Assembly: GCA_003194525.1 (NCBI GenBank) | Contig: NBIV01000176.1 | Coordinates: 1-64,000 of the forward strand | Source: Gracilariopsis chorda | Taxonomy: Eukaryota; Rhodophyta; Florideophyceae; Gracilariales; Gracilariaceae | Direction of reading: 5' to 3' | Length of the DNA stretch: 64,000 nt | In this document: positions 662 through 62,205 of the stretch, piece after piece | Position numbering within the stretch: position 1 is the stretch's first letter | Layout: each line of letters opens with the position of its first letter | The notes under the pieces: generated by a model | What the model saw: the letters and a program-made list of their open reading frames with translations, nothing else | Databases searched by the model: none | What the model was told of the DNA's origin: nothing | Program-made: the position numbers and the translations under genes

Positions 662-1492
662 GTGTGGTGCAATGCCCCAAAGGGGAAAAACACCGAAAGA
701 CGTTCGGGATCTTCCTCTCACGAGGTAAACACAGTTGGGTAGAGCCCTCCCAGAGGTGTCACGGCGAAGCCGGTTTGTAAGACCAGGGACACCTGTCGCG
801 ACTTGCGCAGGGAGGTGAGGGCGAAGAATCGGTATCCGCGTGAGCGGGGTGTGATCCTCAGTAGAGGTATGTTTCCACGTAAGTGGGGGTGTGTGAGCGG
901 ATGCGCACACGAGAACCGCGGATAGCGGGAGGTGCTACCCTAAAAAGGGGAAAAAGGAAGGGCGAAGAGGAGGAAAGAAGGACAAAGTGAGTCGCGAGAG
1001 CGACGAACAGATACGGCAATGCCGGTGGACAGGACTCCCTATACAGGGCGAAACACCAATATGATTGGAACAATTATACTCCCAAGAATGGGCTTCTTTA
1101 GATGTGCAAGGGGGTTAGATGTCCCGTGGTTTACGGCGTTTCCCTCCAAGGAGGAGTAGAGTACGCGCGCAAGCGGCAACAACTAGAGCCAATTTCCCAG
1201 GTTGGGGTCCCTTGTTGGGGAAGGTTTACTGGTGCGACGGCAGTGCGCCGTCACACTAAGTACTAGCTTCCCAGAAATGGGTGTGAAAATAATAAATAAT
1301 ATTAACTAAAATACTCCACATTTCGTGGCAACATCCACTACTGTGGCCAACGGCCAATTGGCCCAAAACCGTGTCCCACGTGTCCATACCCACCATTGTG
1401 GGGCGTAGTTCATACACACACTACACAACCGATACTATCGGGAAAACGATCAAGTACCAAGAATCCCTCCCTGAGGGCGTTGCACTACACAA
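662..1492 (+). repeat. Structured non-coding element, copy 1
   Basis: This segment is collinear with 61293-62151 over its whole length. Both copies start GTGTGGTGCAATG, share the hairpin CCTC-TCAC-GAGG, contain an AT-rich spacer near position 600 of the element, and then a motif around CCACGTGT. Between conserved single-stranded stretches lie many short stems whose two sides have changed together: CGGC-GAA-GCCG at 762-772, TCGC-GAGA-GCGA at 992-1003, CCCT-ATAC-AGGG at 1037-1048 and GACGGC..GCCGTC at 1236-1252. The segment has no protein-coding signature. The 3' limit is set by where similarity to copy 2 stops, so it is approximate, and I found no clear target duplication. I read it as an old copy of a mobile element made as, or acting as, a folded RNA. 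The family is not recognised. Confidence 0.7.
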
Positions 1493-7112: not shown

Positions 7113-7515
7113 TGTCCGCCTATATCGTAGAGAGATAAGCCTTAACTTGTGACCCGCAATCATTGTTCCGTTTTCGTCTCGCGAATGTAAACAGAGAGCA
7201 CTCCACTTTTCTTTCGTGGACAGAGCACAAGTGTGCTGTGTCGTGTCGCTGCCACACGTGTGCGCGATCAGCGCCTCACAAAGTGTTGTGCTCGCACCGT
7301 GCAGTACGTGCCGATCGATGCATTCTGCATTCCCGGCACACCAAGGCGCGTTGTCTTGTCGCCCGAATCAACCAATCTGCTAAACCCCTAAACACAAAAA
7401 ACCCTCGTCCTGCACCCGAATCCATCTCGCCTTGGCCGTAAGCCTTTCTCCCGCGCCTTTCCCCCCCCTCGCTCCCTTTCCTCTTCCACGGTTGCCCTCC
7501 CCCGTGCCGCCCATC
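7113..7515. promoter_or_regulatory. Upstream region and leader of desaturase
   Basis: The last 80 bases before the desaturase ATG are a near-pure pyrimidine tract (7440-7510) and are probably part of the 5' leader. I see no other gene. Confidence 0.35.
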
Positions 7516-9114
7516 ATGCAGCCTGTCGTTCGTCGAAATCTGGTCGCTGCTGCCTGTTTCACCGCCTCTTCCTTCATCATAGCCGCCCTTCTCGTCACGC
7601 GTACCGTCCTGCCTTTCTACCTTTTCCTACCCATCTTCGCAGCCGTTCTAGAGCTTATCGCCCGTCTCTACGACCTGCGAATTCTCGGAAGATTTTCTAA
7701 GCGCCCTTCCGAGACATCTTCTTCTAGACGCCCCCAAAACGACGTTTACACCTGGCAACAACTCGCCGCTCACAACCATCAAGAATCCGCTTGGATCGCC
7801 ATTCACGGTCGTGTCTACGATGTTACCCACTTTGTAGATCGTCATCCAGGCGGTCGTGAACTTCTCTTACTAGCCGTTGGTAGAGATGCCACTGATCTTT
7901 TCACTTCGTATCATCCCTTCACCGACCGTCCTGCAAAAGTCCTCGAGCGATATGCGATAGGCTCCTTGGCTACTTTTGAGCACCCGGTGTACAAGCCGGA
8001 TTCAGGATTCTACAAGGATGCCAGTGACGCTGTTAAGCGCTATTTTGAAACTACCGGCTATGATTCCAAAGCTTGGGGTACCGGTTTCATCAGAATGTTG
8101 CCAGTTTATGTCGTCTTCTTCGCGGCGTATTATGGTGTCTATGTCGTTCCTGGACTTTCGTTTGCTGTGAGGGCGTTGCTGTGCGTTCTCATGGGTGCGT
8201 GTCAGGGAATGCCGCTTACGGGATGGATGCACGATGCTTCTCACGCTTCTATTGGACGGACGGAACGTTGGTGGTGGAATGTTGGTCGTTTTGCCCTTGA
8301 CTACGTCTCCGGCTCGTCTATGCTCTCGTGGCGCAACCAGCACGTCATCGGACATCATGTCTACACAAATGTTATGGGAGCTGATCCCGACCTGCCTGTG
8401 TCTCTAGTGAACGACCCGAGAAGACTGGTGCCGCAACAAGTGTGGGCCCGGTTTTACCGGTGGCAACACATCTATCTTCCTCCCCTATATGGTATTCTCG
8501 GCATTAAGAGTCGCATGCAGGATCTGACTGAAGTGTTTTCCCGACTGATGAACGGTCCCATTCGGGTCAACCCGATCATTGTGCAGGACTACTTACGAAT
8601 GGTTTCCTCAAAGGCGGTATGGGCGTTTTACCGCATTGTTGTGCCGTTAGCGCTGCTTCGGACAGTCACTGTTTCACAATTTTGGGTGCTTTTGTTCGTC
8701 ACAGAAATGACTACCGGCTACTGGTTGGCGTTTAACTTCCAGGTTAGCCATATTTCTAGTGACGCGGACTTCTTGTTCTCGGATGTGTCAAAGAGGGAAA
8801 GTGGAAAATGTCCCGCTGTCATTGACGAGGAATGGGCGCACACGCAAATCAAGACTACGGTCGATTACGCGCACAACAGCCCTCTGGCGGCGTACTTTTC
8901 AGGGGCACTGAACTACCAGACAGTGCATCACTTGTTCCCTACGGTGAGTCAGTATCATTACCCGGCTATTACTCCGATTGTTATGGAGGTGGCTAAGAAG
9001 CATGGTCTTGAGTTTAATGTTTTGTCGACTTTCAAGGATGCGCTTGGGGCGCATGTGCGACACTTGAAGGATATGGGTGAGCAAGGCAAGTGCGCCGAAT
9101 TGAAGCTGGAGTAA
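7516..9114 (+). CDS. Front-end fatty acid desaturase with N-terminal cytochrome b5
   Basis: The reading frame opens upstream at a TTG, but the first ATG is 7516, giving 532 residues. It has a hydrophobic N-terminus, then a cytochrome b5 domain with the haem-binding HPGG at about residue 110. The membrane desaturase part follows, with three histidine boxes: HDASH near 239, HVIGHH near 276 and QTVHH near 468. The glutamine opening the third box and the fused b5 are the marks of front-end desaturases, which put a double bond between an existing one and the carboxyl end (delta-5, delta-6 or similar) in ER or plastid lipids. In red algae such enzymes make arachidonic and eicosapentaenoic acids. 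The regioselectivity cannot be read from the sequence. The gene has no introns. Confidence 0.94.
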   Translation: MQPVVRRNLVAAACFTASSFIIAALLVTRTVLPFYLFLPIFAAVLELIARLYDLRILGRFSKRPSETSSSRRPQNDVYTWQQLAAHNHQESAWIAIHGRVYDVTHFVDRHPGGRELLLLAVGRDATDLFTSYHPFTDRPAKVLERYAIGSLATFEHPVYKPDSGFYKDASDAVKRYFETTGYDSKAWGTGFIRMLPVYVVFFAAYYGVYVVPGLSFAVRALLCVLMGACQGMPLTGWMHDASHASIGRTERWWWNVGRFALDYVSGSSMLSWRNQHVIGHHVYTNVMGADPDLPVSLVNDPRRLVPQQVWARFYRWQHIYLPPLYGILGIKSRMQDLTEVFSRLMNGPIRVNPIIVQDYLRMVSSKAVWAFYRIVVPLALLRTVTVSQFWVLLFVTEMTTGYWLAFNFQVSHISSDADFLFSDVSKRESGKCPAVIDEEWAHTQIKTTVDYAHNSPLAAYFSGALNYQTVHHLFPTVSQYHYPAITPIVMEVAKKHGLEFNVLSTFKDALGAHVRHLKDMGEQGKCAELKLE

Positions 9115-38925: not shown

Positions 38926-40080
38926 CGATCCTACGACGCAGAAGGGCGATTCGAGAACATGCTGCTCTGATCGGGTGTTCTGTATGGTGGTAATGATCCT
39001 GAATTCGTTGTTTGCTCACAAGAAGCATGCAACTATGATGATTGAGCTGGGGTCATTTCTCCACTAAAGTCTTCACACCCTTCCTTTTGCATTGCAGATG
39101 GCTGCAAGCAAAATTCCGCACACGTTAAGGTAATACAAACTGTTTTTGTATGTCTGGAATGGCCACTCAAATCGCTTGGAGACTGCAGTAAAATCAAATC
39201 GTGAACCCAAAAAACCGTTGCATCTATCCCACAACTGCAGCAGTTTGATTTTTGAATGCAGTGTAGAGATAGTTTGCCACTGCAAAATGTAGTCATTGCG
39301 TCACAAGAATCTGATCTTGTATCAGCGCGCGGTGCCGGCTGACAGAAGGTGTGCTTCTCATTGGAAACTCTTGTTCCACGATCTCTTATCTCTTCACGCG
39401 GTGGTGGCTTACTACCTGAAGAGCAAGGTGGTGAGGGTGAGGAGAATTGTTCATTTGCAATCGCGGAGGCCTTGATTTTAAAAGCAATGCGAAGAAAGAA
39501 GCGAAAGCAAAGCGCAATAACAAGCAAAGAATTGTTCAGTCCCGACCGCGGAGGCCTTAAGTTCGAAAGCGAAGCAGCATAGAAAGCGAAAGCACAGTGC
39601 AATAGCAAACCGAGGCCTAGGTCAAAGGTAGAGGTTTGGGTGGGAATCCTTCCAGAAAATGTCGCTGTGAGGTGCAGGTACGAAGTGGGAGGGGTGCGGA
39701 GAGTTGGGGGATGCCGTGGAAGCCATGGCCAGTACCAAGGGTATGTGAGTTTGTGCGCACGTGCACCCAATTACATCCGTGGTCGAACGGTGACCAAATG
39801 TGCTGTTTGTGTACACACAAATACAACAGTTTGGCCTCCAATGTGCACACAAGAATTGTGTCTTTGTGTTTTTCGGAGTCGCCCAATATTTGCGTCACTA
39901 TTGACTGTGTAGAACATGCTGTATCCATTAGGGGATTTTGGCATGCACAGTTCAGTACATTATTCTGTACTTATCACAAGATGTAAACTAGTGAAATATT
40001 AGACACATATTTTTCTTTGGCAGAGAGTTCGGTAACAAGTCGTGGGGAGGAGGATCTTGCACCCTCGTACTCGATCATAC
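38926..40080. other. No supported gene; tandem repeat inside
   Basis: A 245-codon minus-strand frame at 39033-39770 has no domain and crosses the tandem repeat, so I do not call it. Confidence 0.35.
39453..39616. repeat. Two-unit tandem repeat, about 82 bp
   Basis: Two consecutive units each contain CCGCGGAGGCCTT or CGCGGAGGCCTTG followed by GCGAAG..GAAAGCGAAAGCA. They differ at roughly a quarter of positions, so the duplication is old. Confidence 0.6.
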
Positions 40081-42425
40081 CAAAATGGGCATTCGCGACA
40101 AGACCATCTCTAAAGAGAGAACGGGAACTATAAACGCTCTCCTTCTTCTTGCAAGAGCACGACGGGCGGATATTACTAATGCACTAACTGGCTTAGCTCT
40201 GAGACAGATCCACAAGTCAATTTTAGAAAAAGCGCTTCATATAGAGCGCATTTTAAGTGTGGCTTGCTTCGCGTTTTCTCTGTAAAAACTCGATGACAGC
40301 GAGAGCCTTAAGTGCTCTCGTTTTTCTAAAAGCGATATATACCGCATTGTTCGTCTGATGGAATGGCCTTGTAGGCGTAACGTGACAGCTTGAGGACGTT
40401 ACAGAACACATGCGGTTCTCTCGTTCTGTGTACTATGCAGAAGACTTGGTACTGTTTGTCGATGGTGGGATCTGGAGGCAGAGTTTGGTTGTACGACTTC
40501 AGTTTTAAACAAAATCTTCTACGAAGCTTTAGACTACTTTTATTCTAAGTTTTCTACTTTAGTCTCACTTTATCGGCAGTCATTTCTTTCATCAAAAGCA
40601 TCCACATACGCTGCAGCGGTGCGCAGTGCTGTGCACCATTAGATAAATGCGTTGGATTTATCGATGGAACGAACATATATATATCAAGAACCAAAGGCAG
40701 TGCCCAACGTGTTACCTACAATGGCCACAAGCGGAGAAACTGCCTCAAGTTCCAATCACTGAGCACTCCAGATGTCTGGTATTTCACATCTTCGGCTTTG
40801 TTGAAGGTCGGAGGCACGATATGACGGTTTATCGTCATTCCAATATCGATGAAGAACTCAGCACTACATTGTACATAGAGGGTACTCAGTATTACATTTA
40901 CGGAGATCCTGCTTACTTCATCAGGCCATACCTGATAATAAGATACGACGGAGCTCTTTTTACGAAAGAACAAAAACAATTTAACAAGGAAATGTCGGCA
41001 TGTCGTCTTGCCATAGAATGGGCTTTTGAAGACATCAAGAAGTACTTGTCACGTGTTTCGAGCGCGAGAAGGATTCGAATTGGCTACACACCCTCAGCGT
41101 TATGGTATTTTGTGTCCACCCTGTTGTGAAACTTCCGTGCATGCCTGTACGGTAGTCAAAGTGCAACTGACTTTACCTGTGTAGTGCCTACCTTATAGGA
41201 ATACATTGCAACGATACCGCAGGATTAAAGACTGGAAACGATTTACGGAAACTGTGCATGAGCAATAAGTCTGCCCTATGGTAGGGAATTCAATGCCTTG
41301 GTTTGACCTCCCTCCATACCAACTTTTGTGGCGCAGTTCTCTTATTAACTTCAACATACTACGTTGAAATTCCATCCCTAGCCTTTGTTCTGCCGCTGTC
41401 TCTTGCCCTTGCTAATTGTTTTCTTCCGCTTTGCTCCTTACGCCCTCCAATTTACGTTCTTCTAAGTCCGCACGTCTCTGCTCTATTTTAATGCGATCGT
41501 CTGCAGCACTAGCTGCATTGTTGATGCGCTGTTCCTCAAGAGCCAAAAGCTTTTCCTCGCACACGACCCGGGACATGTCCAAGCTGAGACGTTCCTGATC
41601 TTGGACATCTTGGCGCTCTCCTATTTTATTTCGTAGTTCTTCAGCTTTCTCCACCGCTAAGATTGCCTTATCCATGTCCTGACGGGTCTTTCGCGGCGAG
41701 ATTCTCCTCCTCTTGCCCCTTGTATCCGTACTTCCCTCTTCTTCATCATTCGCATCGCCACCATCATGCGATCAAGAGCTACGTCTTGACATAGACATGT
41801 CCTGCACATTACGAACTACATCCAATAGGGCATCTTCCTTCCATTGTAATTCCATCCTTGATGCCTCCTTTTCAACGTTAAAGTGTTCTATTTCAATGAC
41901 TATATCTTGGGCAAGCTGCTCAAAATCACCGTATGTCTCCCCGCCACCCGATGCATTGGCTTTCTCGCGATTCTCGCATCTGAATTTCGCGATCAAGAGC
42001 TTAAATTGATCTTAACAGTGTTTACCGTAAGTTTTCTATGTGGCCGTATTAGCTTCATTGAATTTCTACGCTGCAGTGGCGAAACGAACAAGTGTTGAAC
42101 CATGCTTCGGCCTGTGGGTGTTTGCTGCCTGAACTTCCTTTAGCAGCGCCAAATCAAGGAAGTCGTTGAATTTGCACCTTGGGTTAGAAGATGGACGGGA
42201 TGATGGTCTGTGTGGTTGAGGCTGCTGCAATTGATCCAGAGGCCGTGGGTCTGGGGAAGACGGAAGGGAAGGTGCAGTGATTGGCGCTGTGGTTTCAGGA
42301 GTTGCAGGGATGTCCTGAGTGATCACCTCTGCATCTGATGGTGGCTGTTGTCGTAAAGGCATGGTTGTGGTAGCGCTTGTGTGTCGATGTTGGCAGGAGA
42401 AGGATAGCACAATTTGTGTCATACT
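40081..42425. mobile_element. Second PIF-like element with coiled-coil partner, broken
   Basis: Plus-strand pieces at 40085-41129 form a DDE transposase: CVGFIDGTNIYIS (about 40650-40690), YIYGDPAYFIRPYLI and CRLAIEWAFEDIKKYL supply the three acidic positions. A convergent minus-strand gene at 41412-42360 encodes a partner with KFNDFLDLALLKEVQAANTH and a long charged coiled coil (MSRVVCEEKLLALEEQR). Sequence is unlike the Harbinger-1/2/3 family and the element at 37380, so it is a separate lineage with the same two-gene convergent plan. Both genes have frame breaks. Ends not resolved. Confidence 0.68.
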
Positions 42426-59804: not shown

Positions 59805-60037
59805 GAGCATCTCCACCCGCGACAGGACAATATGCCAAAGTGCTATTATCGAGAGGCCTCGTGTATGGTGCTTAGTGGCCAAGCAAGATAAAAGAATTTG
59901 CACATTTGATCATCAGGTCTTCCACAATCCCAACTCTCTACCGGTTCACGTGGAACTTCATGTGATCCTTCTGACATCCTGTCACTTTTCCTTCACCTCG
60001 CTCATTGAGAGCTCCTCCACACCTCAAGAGCATCACC

Positions 60038-62205
60038 ATGGCGGACCTCTGGTGGAACGAAGCGACAGCGACAGCGGAAGATGTGGACATTGAGTATCTT
60101 CTCGACAGCAGCAGTGATGACTCCCAGCCGAGCTGGGGCGGTTCAAAGCCCGGAAAAGCACCAAACATCAACCGCAGATCCGACCAAGCAGCTCAAAGAC
60201 TGGACATGCGGTACTTTGCGAATAGTCCCATATACGATGACGCCGCATTCCAGAGACGATATCGCACTTCGCGTCAAGTATTCCAAAGAATCTTCGACAA
60301 GATTACTGAACATGACCCCTTCTTCCAACAAAGAAGACATTGTACAGGGCCTATGGGGTTGAATCCTTATCTAAAGATTACTGCAGCCTTCCGCATTCTG
60401 GCGTACGGCATAGCAGCTGACGCGATTGATGAAACTTTCGCGATGAGCGAAACGACAGCCCTACTATGCCTCGAACACTTCGTACAGTCTGTCATTGCTT
60501 GCTTTTCAGGTGAATACATGCGAGCGCCTACCGAAGCGGACATGAAAAAACATTCTGTTGCACTCGGCCAAGCGTGGATTTGCTGGCATGCTGGGGAGCA
60601 TCGAATGTTGCAAATGGCATTGGAAGAATTGCCCAACCGCTTGGCATGGGCAATATGAAGGGAAAGAAGGGGTTCCGGTTGTAACTTTTGAAGCAATCTG
60701 TGACCATTCACTCTGGATATGGCACGCCTTCTTCGGCTTCCCAGGCTTGGGAAATGACATTAATGTTGTTGAGGCCTCTACACTGAAGGGGAAAATAAGC
60801 AATGGGACCTATCCACCGCACTTAGAGTACGTCATAAACGGGGTGAGACGGAACAAGCCGTATTGGCTCGCTGACGGCATCTATCCCAATTGGCCAGTGT
60901 TCATACAAACCGTAGCTTTCCCAGCAAACAAGAAAGAGGAATGTTTAGCAAAGCATCAAGATGCATGCCGAAAAGATGTTGAAAGAGCATTTGGTGTTCT
61001 TCAAAGTAACTGGCATATTGTAGCAATGCCGGCACGTTTCTGGGCTAAAGAGACGATGAAAGATGTCATGCAGTGCTGTACAATTTTACATAACAAGATG
61101 GTGGAGGATCGAGGAGGGCTGGCAGTCGAAGCAGACGCTGCGGCTGATGATGTGACTCCGCGTATTTCCAATGGAGCCGAGCCTATGGGGGGTGGTCTAA
61201 AAGGAATACCCGGACGTACACCACCGCCTGTTGGGAGCTTGGCGGCAATGTACGAGACCCAAGTTTACTTTAAAGATAGCACTGAGTACTTCGTGTGGTG
61301 CAATGTCCAGTGATGGGAAAACACGCCGAAGACGTTCGGGATCTTCCTCTCACGAGGGTAGCACAGCGAAAGAGCCCTTCCAAGGATGACACGACGAAGT
61401 CGGGTGTAAACCGAGGTCAACCTTCGCGACTAGCGCAGGAAGGTGAATAGGTAAACCTGTAACACAATGCAATACTCCGGTGAGGAGGGATGACTCCACA
61501 CAGTGGCGCACACACGACAGATGTCGGTATGAGCCGCGGGTAGCGAGAACTATCCCAAATAGGAAAGGGGAAATATAAAGGAATATGGAGGGAATGGGAC
61601 AAAGGAAAGGGACGAAAACGAGTCACGCGAGTGGCTCGGGGGAGGCCCGGCACTGCCGAGAAATATACCGTATACACGGGCGAAACCACAACAATGGGAA
61701 CAATCCTCAAGAGGGGTATCTTGGCGAGCAAGGGGGTTGAGCACACCGTACGCAACGGGATATTTCTCCTAAATGGAGTCGAGTACCGCCGAAGGCGAAT
61801 GAGCTCAGAGCCAAGTTCTTGGAGTAGAACACCCTTGGTGGGGAAGATTTAATGGTGCAGCGGCCGTGAGGCCGGCGCACTAAGTAGTGTAGCTTCCCTA
61901 GTGTAATAACTAATTAAATAGATAATTAAATAAATATATAACAACCACCCGTTCACTATCTATCCTTGCCTGCAACCCTTGCCAACGCCCGTATTCCACG
62001 TGTACCACCGGTGTACCGGGCCAACTCCTGCTCGCAGGCAGTGCCACCTGGCACGGGGAAAAGTCATGTATGAACATGTATGAAAGCCGGTGCGACCGGG
62101 AAAATTAACAAGTCCCCAGATGTCCCTCTTACGAGGCATGCTCTTCACTTCGAAACGCGAAGATTGGTCATGGAACACTTATGGCATCGGGAGGGTACAA
62201 TCTAA
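60038..62205 (+). pseudogene. Harbinger-3 transposase, frameshifted and interrupted
   Basis: The gene starts at ATG 60038 (MADLWWNEATATAEDVD). The frame is lost at an A6 run (60545-60550) after EADMKK and continues in the next frame as AKRGFAGMLGSIECC. Nuclease blocks are GSIEC (Glu where the sisters have Asp), WLADGIYPNWPVF and RKDVERAFGVLQ. After STEYF at 61292 the structured element intervenes. The C-terminus ETRRLVMEHLWHREGTI resumes at 62152 and stops at 62205. This tail aligns without gap to the Harbinger-2 end (KIRRQVMDHLWERK). The one homopolymer shift suggests recent decay or a sequencing slip; the Asp-to-Glu change would probably weaken catalysis. Confidence 0.92.
61293..62151 (+). 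repeat. Structured non-coding element, copy 2, nested in Harbinger-3
   Basis: The 859-bp insert begins GTGTGGTGCAATG and is bounded by ACTTC at 61288-61292 and 62147-62151. It is homologous to 662-1492 along its length. Stems with compensatory change include CGAC-GAA-GTCG (61392), CTCC-GGTGA-GGAG (61475), TCAC-GCGA-GTGG (61623), CCGT-ATAC-ACGG (61668), CCTC-AA-GAGG (61705), CGCC-GAA-GGCG (61787) and CGGCC-GTGA-GGCCG (61861). It has no open frame of note and no terminal inverted repeat. The 3' end lacks AG, so it does not look like a spliceosomal intron, and group II boundary rules are only half met (GTGTG start, TTC end). I read it as a mobile structured RNA or its DNA copy. Confidence 0.85.

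Follow-up and report, generated by a model that had tools for sequence, protein, structure and literature searches.

A Ty3/gypsy chromovirus of the red alga Gracilariopsis chorda tiled with CC...GG mini-hairpins that appear to be kept by selection

Introduction

Two diverged copies of one repeat, both rich in short hairpins, lie near the two ends of a 64,000-nucleotide stretch of the Gracilariopsis chorda genome (contig NBIV01000176.1, positions 1 to 64,000; hereafter the window). The original prediction, made from the letters of the window, took them for a mobile structured RNA whose hairpins had changed on both arms while pairing was kept. The locus raises the question of what kind of element the repeat belongs to, how far its hairpins extend and what maintains them.

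Results

The repeats are LTRs of a Ty3/gypsy chromovirus

The two copies are diverged and full-length, as predicted, with exact ends at 663-1489 and 61294-62147, slightly inside those first quoted. Both are solo LTRs from two diverged families (A and B) of one Ty3/gypsy chromovirus, an identity that follows from paired LTRs, a primer binding site (PBS), a polypurine tract (PPT), 5-bp duplications and RT, RNase H, integrase and chromodomain between the pairs. LTR A (663..1489, minus strand) reads TGTAGTGCAA...TTGCACCACA on the minus strand, with its U3 side at 1489 and its U5 end at 663; LTR B (61294..62147, minus strand) is ~57% identical to it in the multiple alignment. The repeat ends are TG...CA, and several copies form same-direction pairs ~9-11 kb apart, with ends inspected in sequence (family A on C57, C81, C117 and C139; family B on C146, C532, C700, C1, C42, C69 and C71). 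In paired copies, the PBS TGGTCTCCCGAC stands 3 nt downstream of the LTR and the PPT is a G-run upstream of the 3′ LTR, both on the gag-pol strand. Duplications of 5 bp were seen by eye at the window's LTR B, where the sequence CTTCG stands on the left (61289..61293) and on the right (62148..62152), and at L044, L053, L054, L066, L069, L071 and L072. Unlike the other solo copies inspected, LTR A has no visible target-site duplication and is possibly a recombinant or rearranged copy. A transposase ORF (Pfam Plant_tran, DDE_Tnp_4) occupies window positions 60005-61313, and LTR B is inserted at its end.

Between the LTR pairs, a Gag-like ORF, RT, RNase H, integrase and chromodomain are encoded in the sense of the window minus strand. 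In copy L059 the Pfam matches are RVT_1, RT_RNaseH, Integrase_H2C2, rve and Chromo, in gypsy order, and the best PDB sequence match of pol is Ty3 Gag-Pol. A protease-like motif, DTGAG, and a zinc-knuckle motif, CX2CX4HX4C, in the Gag-like ORF were noted by eye; Pfam gave no aspartic protease or zinc-knuckle match; for the Gag-like ORF, the negative for a zinc knuckle extends to an E of 1. The element, ~10 kb in length, comprises gag, pol, an antisense gene and LTRs. It shares LTRs, PBS, PPT, the RT-RNase H-integrase order and the chromodomain with Ty3/gypsy chromoviruses, to which it adds a genome-wide CC...GG hairpin array and a conserved antisense-direction gene adjoining the 3′ LTR. A hairpin array of this kind was not found in those parts of the open-licence chromovirus literature that were searched.

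This anatomy (LTRs with PBS, PPT and 5-bp duplications, and the pol domains and chromodomain between pairs) displaces the ribozyme-like or SINE-like RNA that had been proposed. Rfam gave no match at cut-off in the window; below the cut-off, copy A had three weaker matches (best E 0.01), none a ribozyme, and copy B had none to E 1. ARAGORN found no tRNA within the window. Readings as a group I/II intron, ribozyme or SINE were set aside in view of the LTR anatomy together with the lack of an Rfam match at cut-off.

Families and genomic setting

Copy numbers in the 91-Mb host genome were taken from the best 40 candidates scored per search, out of 1920 for family A. The family A LTR has at least 40 near-identical full-length copies, the window copy included, and the 39 others scored are 96-97% identical over nearly their whole length. 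Among the 40 scored for family B, again with the window copy, 33 lie at 93-100% identity and 7 at 82-85%. Two further families, A′ and D, were found using relatives inside retrieved loci as queries; all 40 scored copies lie at 94-100% for A′ and at 89-100% for D. The B′ LTRs (L079-L085) look like old decayed copies. Internal regions were taken from L059, L061 and L062 (A), L099 (B) and L100 (D).

The element RT is 74% identical to an Agarophyton chilense protein, and a scan of viral contigs for this RT returned no match. The host genome contains at least 150 copia and at least 150 gypsy-type RT matches. On the short contigs C883, C573, C819, C509, C755, C530 and C383, RT matches from other gypsy and copia elements recur at constant steps (~5.68, 6.35, 6.04 and 2.68 kb), a pattern that suggests tandemly arrayed LTR elements. 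At C132:108200-108347 and C5:339591-339825, a full LTR is adjoined by a partial LTR copy in inverted orientation, which creates a palindromic junction; two related LTRs abut exactly at C1068:10679-12278 (an A2-type and a D-type), C729:8556-9835 and C757:2090-3368. The window also carries a fatty-acid desaturase (7432-9114), 70% identical to Chondrus crispus and 68% to Agarophyton chilense, with another database protein at 76% over part of the length only.

A putative gene runs antisense beside the 3′ LTR

An open region opposite to gag-pol adjoins the 3′ LTR (L062:18-1900, plus strand; the first 2.6 kb of L099 and L100) and, judged from its sequence, looks like a real gene. Its protein is conserved among families A, B (by tblastn) and D. 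Over two pieces, dN/dS is 0.31 and 0.22 between A and B and 0.29 and 0.26 between A and D, with 0.09 and 0.15 in pol for comparison; when two A copies are compared, the values are 0.70 and 0.61, as for copies after insertion. A 51% identical protein, BWQ96_03215, is annotated in Gracilariopsis chorda. The protein matches no Pfam family, and its AlphaFold model, made from a two-sequence alignment, has a mean pLDDT of 30.

The whole element is tiled with CC...GG hairpins

The hairpins had been described as a property of the repeat; the whole retrotransposon carries them, coding regions included. LTRs, gag, pol and antisense gene are tiled with perfect Watson-Crick mini-hairpins of the form CC-N2/3-loop(3/4)-N2/3-GG, 11-13 nt long with a 4-5-bp stem, at 10-17 per kb. 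The CC...GG base is fixed, and the inner stem and the tri- or tetraloop are free in sequence. Such CC-capped hairpins stand ~10-13 times above dinucleotide shuffles: CC-outer counts are 150 against 11.2 expected in L059, 176 against 16.3 in L061, 163 against 14.5 in L062, 140 against 10.4 in the B copy and 108 against 11.3 in the D copy. GG-outer hairpins are at or below expectation in the same copies, and CT-outer (21/3.6) and CG-outer (22/11.2) hairpins in L059 are raised less than CC-outer ones. Four internal regions contain 99-172 CC-capped cores each; short hairpins of all kinds are in about three-fold excess in the internal regions of three A copies, and every 500-nt window of L059 (16) and L062 (19) lies above expectation, with z of at least 3.2.

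The enrichment depends on inner pairing. With all inner bases paired, CC and GG at a distance of 7, 8 and 9 nt occur at observed/expected values of 156/18.8, 238/18.4 and 148/5.2, falling to 33/4.8 at 10 nt and 8/1.6 at 11 nt; at 7-9 nt and with the inner bases unpaired, CC...GG reaches merely 1.3-1.5 times expectation (263/202.5 at 7 nt). Coding sequence accommodates the array throughout. The pol ORF contains 71 CC hairpins, whereas 100 synonymous-codon permutations that keep the protein average 9.2 and never exceed 15; the hairpins of the ORF occur at 3-8 per 100 codons along its whole length and in all three codon phases.

Hairpins take up 31-42% of the bases in A, B, D and the related C15 family against 13-15% in shuffled sequence; in one A copy (42% against 15%), the share of hairpin-free 21-nt windows falls from 0.66 to 0.18. 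Gaps of 0-2 nt between neighbouring CC cores are avoided (2 against 24.6 expected) and gaps of 6-11 nt preferred (90 against 50.5), and a second, smaller excess lies at 27-32 nt (47 against 33.6); taken together, the gaps are spread in a manner near random placement. A-T and T-A pairs immediately outside the cap are avoided (28 against 71 expected). Linkers no longer than 14 nt are rich in A when read on the gag-pol strand (0.38, against 0.16 for G). The accessible parts of the open-licence literature gave no account of a comparable array; as far as that literature was searched, the element is of a known kind and the hairpin array on it is new.

The array is clade-specific among the elements sampled

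Window host DNA, in 20 pieces of 3 kb, contains 39 CC hairpins against 29 expected, with 0-4 per piece. The flanks of LTR copies, taken as 76 pieces of 1.4 kb, divide into 44 with 0-8 hairpins and 32 with 10-31, some of the latter overlapping an LTR. CC hairpins number 0-2 in eight samples of other LTR retrotransposons from the same genome (two copia and six gypsy, each 1.5-2.5 kb long); some of these samples show a mild excess of non-CC hairpins, e.g. 14 against 8.1. The six gypsy samples without the array are 31-44% identical to this RT, and the C15 gypsy family, 74.7% identical over RT-INT, has the array: one copy, over 2.5 kb, contains 64 hairpins against 25.1 expected, and its cap is less strict (CC 17/1.9, TC 12/1.9, outer base C 37/8.1). 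The array is thus clade-specific among the elements sampled. Of the 600-nt segments of the window that lie beyond the LTR regions, 39601-40200 alone has a hairpin z above 4 (11 against 4.5); its CC-capped hairpins number fewer than 5 per 500 nt.

Hairpins and paired changes in the LTRs

Hairpins in the LTRs are well beyond chance. Against dinucleotide shuffles, LTR A has 28 short hairpins where 7.7 are expected (z 9.8), LTR B 23 where 7.6 are (z 6.1) and LTR D 22 where 7.3 are, and 202 other 600-nt windows have a mean z of 0.23. Whole-LTR folding energy gives z of -4.27 for A and -2.81 for B (20 shuffles each). On the minus strand, LTR A has 17 CC-capped cores (675-685, 714-725, 746-756, 836-847, 856-867, 875-886, 938-949, 1037-1048, 1056-1068, 1081-1092, 1143-1154, 1196-1206, 1270-1281, 1335-1346, 1389-1402, 1429-1441 and 1465-1477) and LTR B has 9 (61326-61339, 61346-61357, 61496-61506, 61668-61679, 61811-61822, 62008-62019, 62027-62038, 62087-62099 and 62125-62136); by a wider definition, CC-outer hairpins number 20 against 1.0 expected in LTR A and 9 against 0.8 in LTR B.

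Seven hairpins had been quoted as changed in both arms between the two window copies, and five of them fit at one aligned place (A/B: 762-772/61392-61402, 992-1003/61623-61634, 1037-1048/61668-61679, 1166-1175/61787-61797 and 1236-1252/61861-61874). The other two do not stand as quoted. The CCGC-to-CTCC pair is not aligned, the B hairpin 61475-61487 lying opposite the CCTC hairpin 856-867 of A, and the place in B aligned with CCCA reads CCTC-AAGA-GGGG, with one T-G, and not CCTC/GAGG. The more general claim of paired change is weak in most comparisons that involve B: double Watson-Crick changes number 8 against 7.0 expected from A to B (188/500 re-pairings), 9 against 5.8 from A′ to B (47/500), 9 against 6.6 from D to B (87/500) and 10 against 7.1 from B to D (50/500), and of these five comparisons only B to A is significant (11 against 6.0; 7/500). 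Between A or A′ and D the claim is clearly borne out, with 5-8 double changes against 0.8-1.5 expected in four comparisons (0-2 of 500 re-pairings). Covariation becomes clear once D and the internal region are added, and not above chance in the A-to-B LTR comparison alone.

In thirteen fixed-column helices, chosen by eye over 16 LTRs, 80.8% of cells are paired and 51 cells show a double change; slid helices give 33-40% and 9-22. The number of pairs in which a double change occurs (13 against 10.0 shuffled, 34/500) and of pair types (28 against 32.4) is not clearly raised. In the hairpin 1037..1048 (minus strand), the third pair, in plus-strand letters, is C-G in A, T-A in D and G-C in B, with the ATAC loop kept; the corresponding columns 412/419 show three standard pair types, and 15 of the 16 sequences are paired. 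The hairpin 1429..1441 (minus strand) reads CCGAT-ACT-ATCGG, with CCGAA/TTCGG in D and CCGGT/ACCGG in B; within its columns 844-856, both sides have changed at 847/853 in 8 of 16 sequences and at 848/852 in 4 of 16. Consensus folding of the B/B′ set alone gives z of -2.3 and -2.7 (two strands), against -5.4 to -14.9 in the other sets.

The array appears to be kept by selection

In the internal region, inner-pair double Watson-Crick changes exceed expectation in all three family comparisons (A to D 15 against 3.8, A to B 25 against 9.8, B to D 21 against 8.8; 0/300 each). Double changes of cap pairs are raised from A to B (12 against 3.8) and not clearly so from A (L059) to D (3 against 1.2; 35/300) or from B to D (5 against 4.1; 116/300). 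Between two A copies there are no double changes, and 18 of the 23 hairpin differences listed between two A copies are single-base. Positions turn over: of 139 A hairpins, 50 are fully kept in D and 40 in B.

Hairpins shared by two families were judged by changes in the third. For those shared by D and B and judged by A (L061), 7/244 stem sites, 19/76 loop sites and 554/4189 outside sites have changed (p 8e-8, stem against outside); the values are 36/394, 12/105 and 615/4250 for A and B judged by D (p 0.003) and 116/547, 44/154 and 1216/4851 for A and D judged by B (p 0.047). Two extra runs with L059 agree (p 7e-5 and 0.005). Shared stems are thus less changed than outside sites in five of five comparisons, 4.6-fold at most and 1.2-fold at least. 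Private mutations of individual LTR copies provide a control: per 1000, stems have 7.7 against 6.2-7.6 elsewhere in A and 6.9 against 9.1-10.3 elsewhere in B. In A, stems thus take about as many of these mutations as the rest of the LTR, and in B somewhat fewer, so the conservation of stems is mostly due to selection acting while elements are active, rather than to reduced mutability. The array appears to be kept by selection, and template-switch mutation without selection, the alternative named in the original prediction, is unsupported because shared stems change less than non-hairpin sites. With the hairpin counts and covariation above, the original view of a mobile, hairpin-rich sequence with paired changes and selected structure is upheld, now for an LTR retrotransposon.

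Strand signals lean to the genomic RNA

Selected RNA structure usually favours G-U over A-C. In these stems, G-U is tolerated no better than A-C, both in one-sided inner changes from A to D (13 against 16) and by a second measure (24/8.8 against 29/12.3), and because G-T and A-C come out about equal, wobble pairs permit no strand call. Stems of 4-5 bp are only marginally stable, and one wobble pair may be enough to disrupt them.

On the gag-pol strand, A beside the cap exceeds baseline (p 4.5e-4 after GG and 2.5e-5 before CC, values that pool A, B and D as independent although the families are related), with no antisense equivalent (p 0.95). The raw polarity is partly baseline, as GG outside hairpins is already followed by A at 0.40-0.50, and for A after GG, B and D taken singly are not significant after baseline control. 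In family A, the antisense-gene region shows the same gag-pol lean (0.62 against 0.33, p 0.018; 0.61 against 0.35, p 0.05), and LTR B shows no strand lean. In 150-nt windows (17-28 each), mean folding z is -1.58 for A sense, -0.94 for A antisense, -0.96 for B sense and -0.79 for D sense, against 0.05 for host DNA and -0.12 for other LTR elements; the cap pairing probability in the predicted ensemble is ~0.36-0.46.

GNRA-like loops, cited in the original prediction, are common among the plus-strand tetraloops of certain LTR families (5/11 in A′, 4/13 in A, 2/10 in D and 2/10 in B). They are not a rule across the element: of the 91-120 tetraloops in each of four internal copies, 6-13 are GNRA on the gag-pol strand and 2-6 on the other. 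The plus strand first taken as the RNA is antisense to gag-pol; LTR GNRA loops point to it, and the strand signals lean to the minus strand. Together these signals lean to the genomic-RNA (gag-pol) strand, short of proof. An antisense leader or IRES for the antisense gene, an idea that rested on plus-strand GNRA loops and A-rich single-stranded stretches in the LTR, was rejected, since the same hairpins fill gag and pol and the whole-element strand signals, the antisense-gene region of A included, lean the opposite way.

Discussion

The preference for CC...GG over GG...CC is unexpected from stacking energy, as the two kinds of stem stack equally, so something probably reads the cap. We infer that the array works at the level of the genomic RNA, where it would present a single recognition unit in many scattered copies, with the element's own Gag/nucleocapsid as the most likely binding protein. 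Taken whole, with the LTR identity, the array and the selection on it included, this reading has a probability of roughly 0.4. Gag or another protein would bind the hairpins as many weak units, and Gag binding would lead to the element's RNA being chosen, condensed and packaged into particles. Gag-binding units are favoured because the array covers all of the genomic RNA, is clade-specific among the sampled elements, is spaced and has a cap that varies by lineage. The cap is CC in A, B and D and CC, TC or other C-bases in one C15 copy, as would be expected if cap and protein co-evolve. The putative zinc-knuckle motif of the Gag-like ORF counts as support for a Gag reader, as do the steric signs (the avoidance of very short gaps and of A-T/T-A pairs next to the cap) and the lean to the sense strand. 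Counting against Gag reading are the equal tolerance of G-U and A-C, the modest folding gain (z -0.8 to -1.6) with its middling cap pairing probability, the absence of a strand lean in LTR B, LTR GNRA loops on the opposite strand, the baseline share in the raw polarity, the negative Pfam result for a zinc knuckle, cap pairs without clear covariation in two comparisons and the turnover of hairpin positions. More tentatively still, a second, protein-read code may overlie gag, pol, the antisense gene and the LTRs, by which the particle protein would select and wind up its own RNA.

The main rival, itself rather unlikely, is shielding: general selection on folding in which short local hairpins avoid long double-stranded RNA with an antisense transcript or block small-RNA silencing, with no single reader protein. 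The sharp loss of hairpin-free 21-nt windows in the A copy agrees with it, as do the short and bounded stems; the conserved antisense gene (dN/dS 0.22-0.31 between families) means that an antisense RNA probably exists, and a need to fold both strands would fit the behaviour of G-U and A-C. Shielding leaves the CC...GG cap, without any rise of GG...CC, unexplained, and overall folding energy is only modestly low. A functionless, mutational origin, in which template switching within imperfect hairpins during reverse transcription completes palindromes, is improbable. It would account for perfect Watson-Crick pairing without wobble tolerance, for restriction to one retrotransposon clade among those sampled and for an even spread over coding and noncoding parts; it is opposed by the lower change of shared stems in every comparison, by private LTR mutations on stems, by the avoidance of pairing immediately outside the cap and by the predominance of single-base hairpin differences between A copies.

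Slightly less probable again are sites at the DNA level, where a protein dimer would recognise dyad-symmetric CC...GG sequences on the integrated or the complementary DNA, for instance in chromatin or silencing. Strand-symmetric stems, equal loss of G-T and A-C and a fixed outer CC/GG suit such sites. A dimer site has no need of inner letters that are free yet complementary, and the tight 3-4-nt loops and the A-rich flanks on one strand also speak against it; CC...GG with unpaired inner bases would be predicted to be equally enriched, far from the slight excess found. A new ribozyme-like or SINE-like structured RNA limited to the repeat would explain covarying hairpins within it and some GNRA loops on the window plus strand, and is left with almost no probability by LTRs with PBS, PPT and pol between pairs, by the same hairpins filling gag and pol and by the lack of any Rfam family at cut-off. 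Recognition units bound by Gag thus remain our preferred reading.

Genome-scale ordered RNA structure (GORS) of RNA viruses is pervasive local structure over a coding genome. This element likewise has pervasive local structure over its coding genome, and differs in that its units are sequence-capped, bounded and uniform, with folding energy only modestly low; in the accessible parts of the open-licence literature, no paper was found on GORS in retrotransposons. The dispersed packaging signals of single-stranded RNA viruses (PS-mediated assembly) comprise many genome-wide copies of a short sequence-structure unit with a common recognition feature (PMC6281560). This element too has genome-wide stem-loops with one common feature; here they occur in a retrotransposon, the common feature is the stem base, and Gag would take the place of the coat protein. 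Retrozymes are retrotransposons with structured RNA (PMC4918200), a likeness to this element, which differs in carrying its own gag-pol and in that the window has no hammerhead or other Rfam family at cut-off.

If the proposed role is correct, this would be, as far as the partly accessible literature was searched, the first genome-wide packaging array in a retrotransposon. Our analysis reveals a constraint at the nucleotide level that extends from end to end of a retrotransposon and that synonymous choices reconcile with the encoded proteins. Should the hairpins prove to be packaging units, a principle of genome-wide assembly that has until now been discussed for RNA viruses would apply to retrotransposons too, and the subfamilies A, A′, D, B and C15 would form a natural set for studying the evolution of code and reader together. 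Whatever the function, the density of CC...GG hairpins provides a simple signature to seek in other red-algal and LTR elements.
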